Below, in pieces: positions 4,249-56,872 of a stretch of 64,000 nt of DNA; the first letter of the stretch is position 1; each line of letters starts with the position of its first letter. The stretch lies in assembly GCF_900113805.1 (NCBI RefSeq), contig NZ_FOQT01000001.1, positions 620,001 to 684,000 of the forward strand. Direction: 5' to 3'. The position numbers and the translations under genes were made by a program. The DNA comes from Halpernia frigidisoli (GTDB lineage: Bacteria; Bacteroidota; Bacteroidia; Flavobacteriales; Weeksellaceae). The notes beneath the pieces are model-generated. The model did no database searches and was not told where the DNA came from. It saw only the letters and a program-made list of their open reading frames with translations.

Positions 4249-4986
4249 TTAATCTATTATGCTATGAATAAAATCCTGGGATTTTGTTTTCCAATCTTCT
4301 TCTTCAAGTAAAATATTAACGAAAGCAGTTCCGATAATTCCGCCATCTGATTTTGCGGTTACAGCGTTAAAATCATTTTTATCTTTAATTCCAAACCCGA
4401 TGAATAAAGGATTTTTTAAATTAATTTCAGAAAGTTTTTGTAAATAATCTTCATTGTTTACGGCTTTGTTTTCATTTCCAGTTGTTGAGGAACTTGAAAC
4501 GGCGTAAAGAAATCCGGAACTTAAATTATCCAAATAATTGATTCTGTTATCTGAAGTTTCGGGCGTCACTAAAAACGTAAAATTCAGGTTGTATTTTTCC
4601 AAAATTTTCTGGTAATTTTTTTCAAATTCAATTGGTGGAAGATCTGGAATGATCAAACCAGTTACTCCTGCTTCCGAACAATTTTTACAAAATTCTTCAA
4701 AACCGAAACTTAAAACCGGATTAATATAACCCATTAAAATTACCGGAATATTAATTTCATCTTTTACAGATTTTAACTGTGAAAAAAGTTTTTCGATGGA
4801 CATTCCGTTATTTAGAGCCAATTCGTGCGCTTTTTGAATAACTGGTCCGTCTGCAACTGGATCAGAATAAGGCATCCCGATTTCCATCATTTGTGCGCCA
4901 GAATCCTGAATTATTTTCATTATTTCTGTCGTGTCTTCCAGTTTTGGAATTCCTGCGGTGAAGTATATATTTAATTTTTTTGACAT
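4249..4986 (-). CDS. trpA: tryptophan synthase alpha chain
   Basis: TrpA cleaves indole-3-glycerol phosphate to indole and glyceraldehyde 3-phosphate and channels indole to TrpB. The 245-residue TIM barrel is a little shorter than the usual 260-270, mainly at the N terminus. The catalytic Glu35 lies in MEIGMPYSDP and Asp46 in SDPVADGP. The later segments GLIIPDLP, TPETSDNRI and GFGIKDKNDF are typical of the family. It is the last gene of the trp operon. About 221 bases containing a dispersed repeat separate it from trpB, unlike the tight spacing elsewhere in the operon. Confidence 0.97.
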   Translation of the reverse strand: MSKKLNIYFTAGIPKLEDTTEIMKIIQDSGAQMMEIGMPYSDPVADGPVIQKAHELALNNGMSIEKLFSQLKSVKDEINIPVILMGYINPVLSFGFEEFCKNCSEAGVTGLIIPDLPPIEFEKNYQKILEKYNLNFTFLVTPETSDNRINYLDNLSSGFLYAVSSSSTTGNENKAVNNEDYLQKLSEINLKNPLFIGFGIKDKNDFNAVTAKSDGGIIGTAFVNILLEEEDWKTKSQDFIHSIID

Positions 4987-5207: not shown

Positions 5208-6395
5208 CTAAATATGTTGTAAATAAGTGTCCAGATCTTTATCGCCACGACCGCTCAAACACACGACTACAACGTCGTTTTCATTAAATTTTTTCTTTGT
5301 AAAAACCGATAAAGCGTGCGCCGTTTCCAAAGCCGGAATTATGCCCTCGATTTTGGACAGTTCAAAAGCAGATTCTAAGGCCTCATCATCGGTAATACTG
5401 AAATATTGTGCTCTTTTTTCTGTAAATAAATTGGCGTGAAAAGGCCCGATTCCCGGATAATCCAAACCCGCCGAAATCGAGTGTGGCTCGATCACCTGAC
5501 CGTCTTTTGTTTGCATAACGATACTTTTGCTGCCGTGTAAAACGCCTAAAGTTCCAAGAAAAGTAGTCGCCGCAGATTTCCCGGATTCCAGACCAAAACC
5601 ACCGGCTTCAGCGGCAATTAATTTGACCTCTTTTTCGTCAGCAAAATGATAGAAAGCGCCTGCAGCATTACTTCCACCGCCAACACAAGCAATGACATAA
5701 TCGGGATTTTCACGACCGATTTTTTCTTTCAACTGCCATTTTATTTCCTCGGAAATCACGCTTTGCAAACGCGCCACCAAATCCGGAAATGGGTGTGGAC
5801 CAACGACGCTTCCAATGATGTAATGCGTTGTTGTTGCATTGTTAATCCAGTCGCGGAGTGCTTCATTTACAGCATCTTTCAAGGTTTTACTTCCGGAAGT
5901 TGCGGGAATTACGGTTGCGCCCAAAAGTTTCATTCTTCCAACATTTGGCTCTTGTCGCGCAATATCGACTTCGCCCATGTAAACGATGCATTCCAAACCG
6001 AGCAAAGCGCACGCAGTTGCCGTCGCAACGCCGTGTTGACCAGCGCCGGTTTCCGCAATAATTCTTTTTTTTCCTAATTTTTTTGCTAATAAAACCTGTC
6101 CAAGCGCATTGTTGATTTTATGTGCGCCAGTGTGATTTAGATCTTCACGTTTTAGATAAATTTGGGTGTTGTATTTTTCACTTAAATTTTTCGCAAAATA
6201 GAGTGGTGTAGCACGACCAACGTAATCTTTCAAAAGATATCTGAATTCCTTTTGAAATTCTTCAGAATTGATGATGTCCAAATATTGATCCTGTAATTCT
6301 TCTACATTTGGGTACAACATTTCCGGCACGAAAGCGCCACCAAATTGACCGTAATAGCCTTCTTTGTCGGGATTTTGATATTTTATTGCTTCCAT
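5208..6395 (-). CDS. trpB: tryptophan synthase beta chain
   Basis: PLP enzyme that condenses indole with serine to give tryptophan, working in a complex with TrpA. It has 395 residues, normal length. The PLP-binding Lys93 lies in [10 protein letters not shown], the phosphate-binding loop is [10 protein letters not shown], and EIKWQLK and LSGRGDKD are typical. The start [10 protein letters not shown] leaves a 14-base gap to the trpF stop. It is the sixth gene of trpE-G-D-C-F-B-A. Confidence 0.98.
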
Positions 6396-6409
6396 TATTT
6401 TATACTATT

Positions 6410-7060
6410 TTAATTAAATTCTATATTATTTTTAAATTTTTTTATCTTTTTTAAATCTTTGTTTCCCGGTTCGATTTCAAATTTTGAATTGATGTCTAAT
6501 GCAATTGGTTGATGGTTGATGGTTGTCAGTTGATGGATGTTTTCATCTGAGATTCCGCCGCTTAAAAAATAAGGTTTTGGTATTTCTATTTCATTTAAAA
6601 TTTGCCAATTAAATGTTTTTCCTGTTCCGCCAAATGCCCTGGAATCGGTATCGAACAATAAATAGTTGATTGTTTTTGGTATTTGGTTTATAGTTTTTTG
6701 CAGTTCTTCTTTGCTTTGATTTCCAATTCTGATTACTTTAATAATTCCAATTTTATTATTTAATTTTTCTCTTAAATCATTTATATAATCTTCGTTTTCA
6801 TCGCCGTGAAGTTGGATAAAGTTTAAATCTGCTTTTTCTGAAATTTCTACAATCTTTTTTACTGTTTCATTTACAAAAACGCCCACTTTTGAATTTGATT
6901 TTAGTGATCTAATATCTTCCAAACTCAACGAATTTAAAACATATCTTGGCGATTTTTGATAAAAAATAAAACCCAGGAAATCAATTTTTGAAGTAATTAA
7001 TTCTTCAATTTGATTGAGTTTTGTTAAGCCACAAACTTTTATTTTTAGACTTGAATTCAT
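6410..7060 (-). CDS. trpF: phosphoribosylanthranilate isomerase
   Basis: TrpF performs the Amadori rearrangement of N-(5-phosphoribosyl)anthranilate in tryptophan synthesis. It is a free-standing 216-residue TIM barrel. KVCGLTKLNQ near residue 8 holds the catalytic Cys, and LLFDTD and YFLSGGIS hold the catalytic Asp region and phosphate site. It is spaced 18 bases from trpC and 14 from trpB. A short tandem repeat of GGTTGATG-like units (6508-6541) lies inside the coding sequence and encodes the IHQLTTINHQP stretch after the SGG loop. The frame stays open across it. Confidence 0.95.
   Translation of the reverse strand: MNSSLKIKVCGLTKLNQIEELITSKIDFLGFIFYQKSPRYVLNSLSLEDIRSLKSNSKVGVFVNETVKKIVEISEKADLNFIQLHGDENEDYINDLREKLNNKIGIIKVIRIGNQSKEELQKTINQIPKTINYLLFDTDSRAFGGTGKTFNWQILNEIEIPKPYFLSGGISDENIHQLTTINHQPIALDINSKFEIEPGNKDLKKIKKFKNNIEFN
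6508..6541. repeat. tandem microrepeat inside trpF
   Basis: Several near-copies of GTTGATGG in a row on the plus strand. The run lies within the trpF frame and keeps it in phase. Confidence 0.6.
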
Positions 7061-7078: not shown

Positions 7079-7858
7079 TTACACTGTTACATTTGAAATA
7101 AATTCTTCAAAAGTCTTTCCCGGATTTTCTGTTTTCATAAAATATTCGCCCATTAGAAATCCATCAAAACCCTTTTCTTTTAAATACTTAAAATCTTCAA
7201 CATTGTAAATTCCGCTTTCCGCAATTTTTAAAATTTCTTTTGGTAATTGATTTTTAAGATTAATTGAATGGTCTAAATCCACTTTAAAATCTTTTAAATT
7301 GCGATTATTAATTCCGACGAAATCGACGTCTTTATTAATGTGTTCTAATTCTTCTTCATCGTGAATTTCCAGTAAAACTTCCAAACCCATTTGATGGGAA
7401 AGTGCTGTAAATTCCTGAACTTGTGAAACCGAAAGATTAGCTGCAATTAATAAGATAACATCTGCGCCTATTGATTTTGCTTCATAAAACTGGTATTCAT
7501 CAACCATGAAATCCTTGCGCAAAATCGGAATATTAGTTGACCTTCGAACTTTTGAAATATCTTCTAAACTTCCACCAAAAAATTGTTTATCCGTTAAAAT
7601 GGAAACTGCACTTGCGCCGAATTTTTCGTAATTTGTTACAACTTCAAAAACACCAGATTTATCATTAATAATTCCCTTTGAGGGCGATTGTCTTTTAAAT
7701 TCAGTAATAATTCCTGATTTTTCCTTTAAAGATTTTTTTAAAGATTTTCCTTGCTTTCCGAAATATTCAGAATCCATTAATTCCTGCAAAGAAATTTCAG
7801 ATTTTGCTTTCCGAACTTCCTCTTTTTTATTTTCAATTATTTTATCTAAAATATTCAT
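7079..7858 (-). CDS. trpC: indole-3-glycerol-phosphate synthase
   Basis: TrpC closes the indole ring to give indole-3-glycerol phosphate. The ATG at 7858 (MNILDKIIENKKEEV) is preferred to a start 27 bases further up, because it matches the family N terminus and sits only 2 bases after the trpD stop. That gives 259 residues, normal length. EFKRQSPSKG holds the first catalytic lysine region, LRKDFMVDEYQ the second, and LLEIHDEEEL, GINNRNL and AESGI follow in the expected order. It is translationally close-packed with trpD. Confidence 0.97.
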   Translation of the reverse strand: MNILDKIIENKKEEVRKAKSEISLQELMDSEYFGKQGKSLKKSLKEKSGIITEFKRQSPSKGIINDKSGVFEVVTNYEKFGASAVSILTDKQFFGGSLEDISKVRRSTNIPILRKDFMVDEYQFYEAKSIGADVILLIAANLSVSQVQEFTALSHQMGLEVLLEIHDEEELEHINKDVDFVGINNRNLKDFKVDLDHSINLKNQLPKEILKIAESGIYNVEDFKYLKEKGFDGFLMGEYFMKTENPGKTFEEFISNVTV

Positions 7859-7860
7859 TT

Positions 7861-8844
7861 TTAATTGATTAAAGCGTTTAAACAATTGAGTGCCTTTCCA
7901 CTTTCTAAACTTTCTTTGGCTAAATTTAAACAGGAGTTATAGTCGCCAAATTTATTTGTGCTTTCCAAAACAATTGCTGCATTTGCTGTAACGACAGCAT
8001 TTTGTTCAAAAGTTCCTTGTCCGTCAAGAATTGTTTTAAAGATTTTGGCGCTTTCTGTTTTAGAATCTCCACCCAAAATTTTATCTGCATCAATTTTATG
8101 AAAACCTAAATCTTCTGGTGCAAATATTTTTTCACCATTTTTTGTGATAATTTTTGTGTCACTTGTTAACGAAACTTCGTCATAACCGTCCAAAGCGTGA
8201 ACCAAACTAAAATTTCTATTTTGTTTTTGAAGCAAATATTGGTACAATCTTGCGATTTCCAAATTATAAACGCCAATCACAGAAAATTCCGGTTGAGTTG
8301 GATTAACCAAAGGTCCTAAAATATTAAAAAATGTTCTTAAACCAAGACCTTTTCGAAGTGGCGCAACGGTTTTTAAGGCAGGATGGAAGAGTGGTGCGTG
8401 TAAAAAACAAAGATTGGCTTTTTCAAGATCTTGTTTTAATTCGTCTTCATTATTTTTAAATTTATAACCCAATTCTTCTAAAACATTCGACGAACCGGAA
8501 ACAATTGAAACCCCGTAATTACCATGTTTTGCGACTTTTTGTCCGGCACCTGCAACGATAAAACTCGACAATGTAGAGATGTTAAAAGTGTTTTTTCCAT
8601 CACCGCCAGTTCCGACAATATCGGCAAGATTTTCACCCAAATTTACCGGAACTGCGAGTTGCATCAAAGCCTCGCAAAAGCCTTCCAATTCTTCCAATGT
8701 AATGCTTCGCATCAAAAAAACGGTGACAAAAGCAGTCACTTCACTTTCGTTAAATTTATTTTGCGCGATTTCTGTCAAAATAGATTTTGCTTCTACTTTT
8801 GTTAAAGTGTTGTGGTTGAATAAATATTGTAATATTTCTTTCAT
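7861..8844 (-). CDS. trpD: anthranilate phosphoribosyltransferase
   Basis: TrpD adds the phosphoribosyl group of PRPP to anthranilate. It has 327 residues, normal length. The PRPP-binding loop GTGGDGKNTFNIST is at about 78-91, followed by KHGNYGVSIVSGSSNVLEELG and a LRTFFNILGPLVNP segment, both diagnostic. One base separates it from the trpG stop, suggesting translational coupling. It is not fused to trpG, unlike in some other bacteria. Confidence 0.97.
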   Translation of the reverse strand: MKEILQYLFNHNTLTKVEAKSILTEIAQNKFNESEVTAFVTVFLMRSITLEELEGFCEALMQLAVPVNLGENLADIVGTGGDGKNTFNISTLSSFIVAGAGQKVAKHGNYGVSIVSGSSNVLEELGYKFKNNEDELKQDLEKANLCFLHAPLFHPALKTVAPLRKGLGLRTFFNILGPLVNPTQPEFSVIGVYNLEIARLYQYLLQKQNRNFSLVHALDGYDEVSLTSDTKIITKNGEKIFAPEDLGFHKIDADKILGGDSKTESAKIFKTILDGQGTFEQNAVVTANAAIVLESTNKFGDYNSCLNLAKESLESGKALNCLNALIN

Positions 8845-8845
8845 T

Positions 8846-9415
8846 TTAATCTTTTAAAAAATTCTCTAAAATTTCCCTTCCTTTTGGTGTTAAAATACTT
8901 TCCGGGTGGAACTGAACGGCTTGAACATCATAAGTTTTATGTTGCAAAGCCATAATCATCTGATCTTTATCAACAGCCGTAATTTCCAATTCTTCGGGAA
9001 AATATTCAGGCGAAACTGCCCAAGAATGGTATCTTCCGGCCTCGAAAGTTTCTGGGAAATTTTTAAAGATTTCTGTATTTTTATTTAAAATTTTAACGTC
9101 TGTTGCAACACCGTGATAAATTTCTGAAAGATTAATTAATTTTCCACCAAATGCTTCGCCAATTGCTTGCAATCCTAAACAAACGCCGAAAATTGATTTT
9201 GTTGGCGCATAAGTTTTAATTAAATCTAATAAAATCCCCGATTCTTCGGGAATTCCAGGTCCAGGCGAAAGAATTATTTTATCATATTGATTAACATCTT
9301 CCAAGGAAATTTCATCATTCCTGAAAACGTCAATTTTTTCGCCTACAATTTCTTCAATCATTTGAACCAAATTGTAAGTAAAACTGTCGTAATTATCTAA
9401 GACTAAAATTTTCAT
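8846..9415 (-). CDS. trpG: anthranilate synthase component II (glutamine amidotransferase)
   Basis: TrpG hydrolyses glutamine and passes ammonia to TrpE; such subunits can also serve aminodeoxychorismate synthase (PabA). The 189-residue class I amidotransferase has the oxyanion PGPGIPEESG segment, nucleophile Cys79 in GVCLGLQAIG, and the His-Glu pair in FHPESILTP. Its place between trpE and trpD supports the tryptophan role. A dual role in folate synthesis is possible but cannot be judged from this window. Confidence 0.94.
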   Translation of the reverse strand: MKILVLDNYDSFTYNLVQMIEEIVGEKIDVFRNDEISLEDVNQYDKIILSPGPGIPEESGILLDLIKTYAPTKSIFGVCLGLQAIGEAFGGKLINLSEIYHGVATDVKILNKNTEIFKNFPETFEAGRYHSWAVSPEYFPEELEITAVDKDQMIMALQHKTYDVQAVQFHPESILTPKGREILENFLKD

Positions 9416-9431
9416 AATTTATTTTTTTAAT

Positions 9432-9518
9432 GTAAAAATGTAATAGTCTAACAGTTTACCAATGAATATCAAATTGAACAAATTGCTACACTGTTAAATT
9501 GTTATATTGCTACATTTT
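9432..9518. repeat. imperfect inverted repeat in the trpE-trpG gap
   Basis: Arms of about 21 bases (GTAAAAATGTAATAGTCTAAC at 9432 onward, and TGTTATATTGCTACATTTTTA near 9498-9518) match except for a central block. The space between is made of low-complexity TTGTTA/TTGCTA units. It makes the trpE-trpG gap (102 bases) larger than the other gaps in the front of the operon. Confidence 0.5.
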
Positions 9519-10936
9519 TATATTGATTCTGCTTTAATTATCGCTTTTTTTAAAGCACCAAGTTTGTTATTGACTTCTTGAAGTTCATTTTCAGCGGAAG
9601 ATTTTGCAACTATTCCGGCGCCGGCTTGATAAAATAAAGTGTTGTTTTTACTTAAAAAAGTCCGGATCATAATTGCCTGGTTGCAACTTCCATCAAAGCC
9701 GACGAAACCTAAACAACCGCCATAATAACCGCGCGAAGTTTTTTCATAGTCGTCGATTAATTCCATGGCTTTAAATTTTGGTGCGCCACTTAAAGTTCCC
9801 TGTGGAAAAGTTGTCGCAATCATTTCAAACGGATTTTGATCTGGTAAAACTTCCGCCGTTACTTCCGAAACCATGTGAATGACATGTGAAAAAAACTGGA
9901 TTTCTTTTAATTTTGTAACCGTCGTTTTTTTGCCAATAATACTTAAATCATTTCGCGCCAAATCTACCAACATCGTGTGTTCTGCGTTTTCTTTGGCGTC
10001 TTCTTTTAATAATTCTGCGGACGCTAAATCTTCCTCCAAAACGCCGGTTCTTTTAAAAGTTCCCGCAATTGGGTGAATGATCGCTTTTCCATCTTTAATG
10101 ATCAATTGGGCTTCTGGCGAAGAACCAAATATTTTATAATCGCCATAATCAAAGTAGAAAAGATAAGGTGACGGATTTATATTCCGTAAGGCGCGGTAAA
10201 CATTAAAATCATCACCTTGAAATTTCTGCTGAAATCTACGGCTTAAAACGAGTTGAAAAACATCGCCACGGAAGCAATGTTTCTTTGCTTTTTCTACATT
10301 TTCCCGGTATTCTTCATCTGTAAGATTAGATTTTTCTTCATCTACCTTATTGAAAGGAAATATTGGCGCATTTTTTTGATTGATTAAATTTTCAATTTTT
10401 GAAATATCCGATTTTAAACCTTTGATCTTGTTTTCAATTAAAAACATTTCGTCATTAAAATGATTAATCGCGATTATAAACTGGTAAAAACGGTATCTTA
10501 AAAGTGGAATTTTATTTTCTTCAGATTGTTCTTTAAATTTAATTTTATCAAAAAATGGGATAGCATCATAACTCGTGTAACCAAAAAGTCCTTGCGCAGA
10601 TTTTCCCAAATCGTTAACAGGAACCTCGCCTTCAAAACATTTGCAAAAATTTTGTAAAACATCAGTTAATTTTTCATCTTTTAAATTCATCTTAAAAGAA
10701 GGTTCCAATGGAAATTTTACTTCTGCTTCATCGAAGTTTTTGATCTCAATTCCACCAATTGCATTTACCGCAATAAATGAAAAATTATTCTGCGTATTTT
10801 GATTTCCAGCACTTTCTAAAAGAACCGTATCACGAAACTGATCGCGCAATCTTAAATAAATCCCAACGGGCGTAAAAAGATCACTTAAAGTAGATTTTAC
10901 CGTAGTTTTATAATTTATTTTTTGGGAAAATTCCAT
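9518..10936 (-). CDS. trpE: anthranilate synthase component I
   Basis: TrpE converts chorismate and ammonia to anthranilate, the committed step of tryptophan synthesis. It has 472 residues, normal length. The C-terminal chorismate-binding domain is clear: FQLVLSRRF, FGSSPEAQL, PIAGTFKRTG, DLARNDL, TTFPQGTLSGAPK and GYYGGCLGFVG occur in the expected order. It is the first structural gene of the operon, 117 bases downstream of the trpL stop codon with the attenuator hairpin between them. Feedback inhibition by tryptophan is typical of the family but was not read from specific residues here. Confidence 0.96.
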   Translation of the reverse strand: MEFSQKINYKTTVKSTLSDLFTPVGIYLRLRDQFRDTVLLESAGNQNTQNNFSFIAVNAIGGIEIKNFDEAEVKFPLEPSFKMNLKDEKLTDVLQNFCKCFEGEVPVNDLGKSAQGLFGYTSYDAIPFFDKIKFKEQSEENKIPLLRYRFYQFIIAINHFNDEMFLIENKIKGLKSDISKIENLINQKNAPIFPFNKVDEEKSNLTDEEYRENVEKAKKHCFRGDVFQLVLSRRFQQKFQGDDFNVYRALRNINPSPYLFYFDYGDYKIFGSSPEAQLIIKDGKAIIHPIAGTFKRTGVLEEDLASAELLKEDAKENAEHTMLVDLARNDLSIIGKKTTVTKLKEIQFFSHVIHMVSEVTAEVLPDQNPFEMIATTFPQGTLSGAPKFKAMELIDDYEKTSRGYYGGCLGFVGFDGSCNQAIMIRTFLSKNNTLFYQAGAGIVAKSSAENELQEVNNKLGALKKAIIKAESI

Positions 10937-10969: not shown

Positions 10970-11002
10970 TAAAAAAAGACCTTAACGTATCGCTAAAGTC
11001 TT
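10970..11002 (-). terminator. trp operon attenuator terminator
   Basis: On the minus strand, AAGACTTTAGCG, loop ATA, CGTTAAGGTCTT, then seven T residues. The 12-pair stem contains two G-U pairs. It lies between the leader peptide and trpE. Its 5' arm overlaps the 3' arm of the predicted antiterminator (10990-11005). Confidence 0.9.
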
Positions 11003-11064
11003 ATAAAATCTTAATTTATTTTTCTTAAAAAATTAAACAAAAGATGTGTATATCAGACCCGCGA
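10990..11064 (-). promoter_or_regulatory. predicted trp antiterminator
   Basis: On the minus strand TCGC-GG-GTCT-GA-TATA (11064 to 11049) can pair with TATA-AGAC-TTTA-GCGA (11005 to 10990), giving 12 pairs with one internal loop and one bulge. The 5' arm covers the last leader codons and the stop. A ribosome stalled on the Trp codons would leave it free, while a ribosome at the stop would mask it. The pairing is seen; the switching is inferred. Confidence 0.7.
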
Positions 11065-11106
11065 AGAGTTGAAATGCCACCACCAGTTTTTGTTTAAGTT
11101 TTTCAT
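11053..11106 (-). CDS. trpL: trp operon leader peptide with three consecutive Trp codons
   Basis: A 17-residue ORF, MKNLNKNWWWHFNSSRV, with TGG TGG TGG at codons 8-10 and a TGA stop. Tryptophan is the rarest residue, so three in a row just upstream of trpE and a terminator marks a classical attenuation leader. When charged tRNA-Trp is scarce the ribosome should stall at codons 8-10, leave the segment near the stop codon free for antiterminator pairing, and let RNA polymerase reach trpE. With ample tryptophan it should finish at the TGA and the terminator should form. The promoter element lies 36 bases upstream of the start codon. The peptide has no other expected function. Confidence 0.92.
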   Translation of the reverse strand: MKNLNKNWWWHFNSSRV

Positions 11107-11141
11107 AATTCTAATTATAATTGATTGTCTCAACTGTGAAG

Positions 11142-11149
11142 CAAATTTA
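11142..11149 (-). promoter_or_regulatory. trp operon promoter -7 element
   Basis: TAAATTTG on the minus strand, matching TAnnTTTG, 36 bases upstream of the leader peptide ATG. Transcription would start near 11135. No clear -33 element was seen. Confidence 0.65.
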
Positions 11150-56707: not shown

Positions 56708-56750
56708 TTACTTTTTGATTTACAAAAAAGCTACAATATATTCAAACTTT

Positions 56751-56872
56751 GCAGCCCGACTTGAGTGGAAATCCTTTTTTTGCATTTATAAAAAAAAGAT
56801 TGGGAACGGAAGGCGGAAATGTCTGCCCAAAAAAATATCAAATTAGCTTTCGAGGTTATTAAATGTCTGCCC
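56751..56872 (+). repeat. dispersed structured repeat, copy D
   Basis: GCAGCCCGACTTGAG, GGAAATCCTTTTTTTGC, short loop, AAAAAAAAGATTGGGAACGG, AAATGTCTGCCC, then a tail ending in a second ATGTCTGCCC. It is nearly identical to copy C over the first 90 bases. It lies downstream of guaA. Confidence 0.85.

Follow-up and report, generated by a model that had tools for sequence, protein, structure and literature searches.

What decides whether RNA polymerase enters the trp operon of Halpernia frigidisoli? The question is raised by the DNA just upstream of trpE in a 64,000-nucleotide stretch of contig NZ_FOQT01000001.1 (hereafter the window), where a first-pass annotation made from the letters alone had seen a tryptophan attenuator. 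Our answer, to which we give a probability of roughly 0.93, is that this region attenuates transcription of the trp operon in the classical, ribosome-mediated way. The anatomy of the element, its conservation and the covariation of its arms can be read from the sequences compared here. Its basic parts and the genes that follow them are:

11142 to 11149, minus strand: TAAATTTG, the Bacteroidota -7 promoter box, read from the sequence.
11053 to 11106, minus strand: leader open reading frame trpL, 17 codons with the ATG at 11106, MKNLNKNWWWHFNSSRV followed by the stop TGA at 11055-11053.
11077 to 11085, minus strand: three TGG codons, leader codons 8-10, the proposed sensor, read from the sequence and matched by WWW reading frames in relatives.
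10976 to 11002, minus strand: intrinsic terminator hairpin (segments 3:4), a 12-pair stem with a 3-nt loop, followed by a T-run.
9518 to 10936, minus strand: trpE, anthranilate synthase component I, the first gene of the operon (NCBIfam TIGR00564).
8846 to 9415, minus strand: trpG (NCBIfam TIGR00566, above cut-off).
7861 to 8844, minus strand: trpD (NCBIfam TIGR01245, above cut-off).
7079 to 7885, minus strand: trpC (NCBIfam NF001377, above cut-off), start codon uncertain and taken from TTG.
6410 to 7060, minus strand: trpF (NCBIfam trpF models, best E 1.3e-48, under their cut-offs).
5208 to 6395, minus strand: trpB (NCBIfam TIGR00263, above cut-off).
4249 to 4986, minus strand: trpA (NCBIfam TIGR00262, above cut-off).

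The promoter box, the 17-codon frame with TGG at codons 8-10 and the terminator upstream of trpE had all been called in the first-pass annotation, and all are confirmed on the minus strand. By NCBIfam naming the gene order 3' of the attenuator is trpEGDCFBA, the match of trpE to TIGR00564 (E 1.5e-122, 409.9 bits) lying under that model's cut-off of 517.7. The closest named relative found is Halpernia humi, with a trpE that is 90% identical, and one further genome of the genus equals H. humi in trpE identity and in leader peptide. The window also contains three Flavo-1 RNA motifs (RF01705; 4117-4206 and 54927-55027 on the minus strand, 56746-56824 on the plus strand), one of which lies between trpA and lipB.

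Shuffling the last 350 nt upstream of trpE 20,000 times never gave a reading frame with three adjacent Trp codons, and one with two arose in 0.16% of 5,000 shuffles of the region upstream of trpE. No further WWW was found among the short reading frames scanned across the window, and the two other minus-strand places with WW lie inside trpB (5866/5839) and opposite a 505-codon open frame (26239).

Is this arrangement shared by relatives? We compared the sequences ahead of trpE at 146 loci, mostly of the same family and order, a set which contains duplicate genomes (L003 and L018, for example) and which numbers 108 after thinning. It includes 12 of the first 15 relative loci (L003-L014, with L015-L017 left out); the remainder are loci given for genomes matching trpE and 80 stretches picked by hand to spread over genera. 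In the redundant set 141 of 146 loci have upstream of trpE a leader in which two or more Trp codons are adjacent, and 128 of 146 have a WWW leader; five loci (L095, L105, L155, L158 and L161) contain no Trp-run leader. An intrinsic terminator lies between leader and trpE in 107 of the 108 non-redundant loci, the exception being L156, whose leader, one of the 141, looks like a chance frame. Conservation of the Trp run and of the terminator in relatives, which had been named as the check to make, is thus borne out. A shuffle test on 113 loci, that is the 108 and the five without a leader, found a WWW leader within 350 nt of trpE in 97 and in none during each of 40 shuffle rounds; for WW leaders the count was 107 as against a shuffle mean of 0.9 and a maximum of 2 over 40 rounds. 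Beyond the order, 25 of 40 class members have a WW reading frame, and 24 of these 25 a terminator-like hairpin, which is weak in L189 and L199; the frames of L189, L199 and L211, far upstream and outside the order, look like chance.

Two variations on the theme were seen. In L037, L041, L042, L045 and L046 the run reads WWHH, the third Trp codon being replaced, and leader, core and terminator are retained. L152 and L154 each have two tandem Trp-run leader frames ahead of a single trpE, perhaps two attenuators in series.

The leader RNA (11141-10970) folds better than its shuffles (z = -3.16, with none of 200 as good), which would also suit a leader and terminator working independently of the ribosome, be it a riboswitch or a terminator under the control of a protein or a T-box. 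However, few columns of the leader alignment are as well conserved as the Trp codons, and no T-box or riboswitch family of Rfam reached its gathering score in the window; we regard control of this kind as extremely improbable. Ribosome-mediated attenuation calls for further parts, and these too can be placed in the window:

11077 to 11106, minus strand: segment 1, 5' arm of the predicted outer protector stem, from the start codon to the Trp codons (from the fold).
11051 to 11064, minus strand: segment 2, first antiterminator arm (pairing energy against shuffles; covariation with segment 3).
10990 to 11005, minus strand: segment 3, second antiterminator arm, overlapping the 5' arm of the terminator (pairing against shuffles; covariation).
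11053 to 11072, minus strand: apical hairpin of the protector, UCAACUC / GGGU-C-UGA, which sequesters the antiterminator core (fold; covariation count).
11025 to 11051, minus strand: 3' arm of the predicted outer protector stem, past the leader stop (fold; shuffles).

Segments 2 and 3 of the window pair with -11.2 kcal/mol as compared to shuffle means of -6.0 and -6.5, and 1.5% of 200 and 2.7% of 300 shuffles match this value. Antiterminator and terminator share an arm within 11005-10990 and are therefore mutually exclusive. The antiterminator had been placed here already, with a first arm that covers the last leader codons and the stop (11055-11053); both points are borne out, the first arm being refined from 11064-11049 to 11064-11051. 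Counted from the last base of the Trp codons (11077, W+0), segment 2 extends from W+13 to W+26, and its partner is the 5' arm of the terminator. In the fold of the free RNA, segment 2 lies inside the apical hairpin, which is closed by the outer stem that the leader start forms with bases past the leader stop; this outer stem (11106-11077 with 11051-11025) has -14.5 kcal/mol, and none of 100 shuffles is as good.

Do these pairings persist where the sequences differ? Locus by locus, the 2:3 pairing is better than shuffles at p<0.05 in 51 of 107 and at p<0.01 in 8; the outer stem reaches p<=0.05 in 48 of 106 loci and is weak in the sister species L003 (p 0.18). Among 17 genus representatives of the window's type the antiterminator arms pair with their own partner at a mean of -13.7 kcal/mol versus -10.5 with the partners of others, and none of 20,000 partner permutations reaches the observed pairing; among 12 representatives of the other type the values are -8.8 and -7.2 kcal/mol (70 of 20,000 permutations), and a run of 32 members, with L143, L009 and L014 added, again gave 0 of 20,000, all of these counts applying to a two-type split and to genus representatives chosen by hand after the single-locus pairing results and to a permutation that leaves relatedness in. 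As regards the protector, its apical hairpin has 91.0% of cells paired in an alignment of 36 sequences (from 37 after thinning, L152 being left out as another type), as compared to 53.9% and 55.1% after a slide of one column. Two-sided changes occur in 23 of its cells versus 7.7 in shuffles (none of 500 as high), and the number of pairs with any two-sided change is 4 versus a shuffle mean of 3.4 (221 of 500), a number equalled by the +1 slide. This count is not blind, since the structure was read off single-sequence folds and then counted on the same alignment. RNAalifold, run on the MAFFT alignment of the 36 leaders, returned no consensus pair. We give more weight to the count on the named hairpin than to this null result, even though the structure came from single-sequence folds, and predict that a protector (1:2) hairpin which would sequester the antiterminator arm is present. 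The covariation which the first-pass annotation had called for is thus found across genera in the antiterminator arms and in the apical hairpin of the protector.

How would these parts act together? The stalling of the ribosome, the timing and the response to tryptophan are what we infer from the anatomy. RNA polymerase would start near 11137, as predicted, and transcribe the leader. When tryptophanyl-tRNA is scarce, the ribosome would stall on the UGG codons and cover segment 1 as well as the apical hairpin on its 5' side, leaving segment 2 (11064-11051) free. Segment 2 could then pair with 11005-10990, the terminator 5' arm, ahead of synthesis of the 3' arm, and the polymerase would enter trpE. 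When Trp-tRNA is ample, the ribosome would reach the stop and cover segment 2, or the protector hairpin would re-form; with segment 2 covered or protected the terminator would fold, and the transcript would end about 35 nt before trpE. The footprint of a ribosome extends some 12 bases upstream and some 15 downstream from the first base of the P-site codon. On this footprint a ribosome with the third Trp codon in its A site would end near W+10, just ahead of segment 2, and would cover the greater part of the apical hairpin's 5' side. Masked folds of the window with the polymerase at the end of the terminator loop yield the antiterminator when the mask sits on the third Trp codon and no antiterminator when it sits at the stop. 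In masked folds of the full transcript the terminator wins in every one listed (15 loci, one of them in part). As it wins in both states once its 3' arm is present, control must be kinetic, and our model depends on timing. In the E. coli trp attenuator, too, control is kinetic. The logic of classical attenuation that had been proposed for this locus is supported by the presence and conservation of Trp codons, protector, antiterminator and terminator.

But to which landmark is the antiterminator tied, the Trp codons or the stop? The first-pass annotation had taken the ribosome parked at the leader stop, where it would mask the first antiterminator arm, to be the essential switch. Such masking fits the window, whose stop lies 22 bases past the Trp run and inside segment 2, as well as the loci of the same layout (14 of 66 of the window's type), and the masked fold of the window agrees with it. 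Across the 66 loci, however, the stop lies 22 to 49 bases past the run, and in 44 of them it lies at 37 to 49, beyond segment 2. In masked folds with the stop at least 40 bases away, a ribosome at the stop leaves segment 2 exposed and the antiterminator is not prevented. The GUCU/AUCU core of the antiterminator, on the other hand, lies 17-21 bases past the run in 65 of the 66 loci, the window included, the exception being L005 with its core at +14. Core positions are counted here from where the third codon of the run ends, be it WWW or WWX, and segment 2 positions from the last Trp, which is the same for WWW leaders. The core spacing is constant whichever of the three frames the leader uses (14, 49 and 3 loci), and at one and the same kind of RNA core the peptide thus has RV-stop, SGLK, QSLE or SRS-stop. 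With the core distance fixed in three frames and the stop drifting, it is the spacing from the Trp run that is conserved and not the stop. Masking at the stop fails in the 44 loci with stops at 37 bases or more, and release and refolding of the protector would thus have to serve there, to judge from five masked folds. Masking at the stop codon, then, holds for the layout of the window but is not a conserved principle, and we consider it rather unlikely to be the essential switch. The fixed distance from Trp run to antiterminator in three frames amounts to a natural experiment on which part of an attenuator is under selection.

The variable peptide also bears on the question of what the leader senses. 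A short Trp-containing leader upstream of a Trp-related operon would be in keeping with a nascent peptide that arrests the ribosome on free tryptophan and not on uncharged tRNA-Trp, and TnaC is an example of such a leader. Yet a run of adjacent UGG codons suits tRNA sensing, and the variation of the residues past the run by genus and frame, around a retained RNA core, speaks against a conserved arrest peptide; we hold this alternative to be very improbable. T-box, riboswitch and TnaC-like readings were all set aside.

Elsewhere in the same genome (contig C7, L213 1333-1389) a leader MKVTTVLNHHHHLTKKAS stands upstream of hisG and is followed by a hairpin with a T-run which by eye resembles a terminator. 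Leader and hairpin are likely a histidine attenuator.

Where do transcripts of these leaders begin? Of the 108 non-redundant loci, 93 have a TAnnTTTG box no more than 70 nt upstream of the leader ATG, as compared to 9.2 expected. In 63 of the 108 (L019, L052 and L107, for example) 4 or 5 nt separate the box from an in-frame leader ATG, as compared to a mean of 0.4 and a maximum of 2 when the same rule is applied to shuffled upstream DNA; the rule takes for each locus the pair of in-frame ATG and box with the spacing nearest to 5 nt. A simpler rule, with the nearest ATG and box, gives leaderless spacing in 47 of the 93 box-bearing loci. In F. psychrophilum the box lies at -12 to -5 and 5.5% of mRNAs are leaderless (PMC9723704), and the 63 leaders should therefore have their 5' end at the ATG or a single base upstream. 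Promoter spacing thus predicts that 63 of the 108 leader mRNAs are leaderless. Exceptions to this spacing are the window, where 35 nt separate the G of the TAAATTTG box from the leader ATG, and H. humi with 22 nt.

Bioinformatic predictions of attenuators in Bacteroidetes were made earlier. Trp attenuation in Bacteroidota is already described in three sources: the "Bacteroid-trp" RNA, Rfam RF01692, was published in 2010 (Weinberg, PMC2864571), a 2019 paper describes the element as conserved ahead of the F. psychrophilum trp operon and compares it to the leader of E. coli (PMC6414381), and a 2021 flavobacterial transcriptome, that of F. psychrophilum, gives strong clues to leader-peptide attenuation at amino-acid operons (PMC9723704). 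Does the element of the window belong to this lineage? It resembles RF01692 in phylum and in its location ahead of trp genes, but scores 20.6 bits against it (E 9) and misses the gathering cut-off of 49; in its own genome the model found no match at E<=10 in a search whose filters lose weak matches. With the same filters the cut-off was reached in 14 of 100 genomes of the window's family and in 10 of 295 drawn over the class. In 11 of those 14 genomes the match lies directly upstream of trpE, the other 3 being without a listed trpE place. Scores upstream of trpE grade from above 49 (G026, G047 and G062) through 44.3 (G093) and 35.5 (G030) to 28.8 in G001 of the window's genus, the last being at chance level (E 0.5), with 34.2 at another place of the same genome. 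The same place and the intermediate sequences suggest common descent with the members that score against RF01692; as the score of G001 is at chance level, it is position and a model of our own, R1, that carry the link at that end. R1 was built from 27 of the 36 aligned relatives and lacks the window's genus, L001 being excluded to keep the window unseen and L067, L093, L094, L114, L115, L122, L133 and L134 for reasons of alignment or redundancy. It matches positions 11100-11028 with 54.7 bits (E 4.1e-16 in the window), and the runner-up among 34 places listed for the genome has 23.5 bits. On the strength of this difference we file the element as a trp attenuator of the Bacteroid-trp lineage beyond the reach of the present Rfam model, which at its cut-off reaches a minority of genomes of the window's family. 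The consensus of RF01692 comprises the AUG, the UGG run and an end stretch that is the terminator 5' arm of Flavobacteriaceae. In the Flavobacteriaceae type the start of segment 2 lies about 18 bases past the Trp run and the segment pairs with terminator loop and 5' arm, whereas in the window's type its start lies 9-13 bases past the run in most loci and it pairs with the 5' arm.

A Trp attenuator ahead of trpE is also known from Sinorhizobium meliloti, where the rnTrpL RNA begins at the leader ATG and is leaderless (PMC7298713). The 63 of 108 loci with a predicted leaderless start are like rnTrpL in this respect; the window with its predicted 5'UTR of about 31 nt is not. One might combine metering from the Trp codons, mostly leaderless leaders and a terminated leader that serves as a translatable, trans-acting small RNA into a single reading. 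Its first two parts, an RNA core one stalled-ribosome edge past the Trp codons and the leaderless starts, are likely, but a trans role of the terminated leader, by analogy with rnTrpL/peTrpL of S. meliloti, is speculation, and we think it quite improbable that all three hold jointly. Classical Trp attenuation, for its part, is what usually precedes trpE in the Flavobacteriales loci examined, and it is present in other Bacteroidia as well. A comparable element is the trpL attenuator of E. coli, in which Trp codons stand in tandem, hairpins exclude each other and an intrinsic terminator lies ahead of trpE. The trp-leader family of Rfam gave no match at gathering score in the window. The element of the window shares with E. 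coli trpL the tandem Trp codons, the exclusive hairpins and the terminator, but its Trp codons number three where E. coli trpL has two. As an example of a well-known switch it is sound but ordinary, and nearly all relatives examined share the arrangement.
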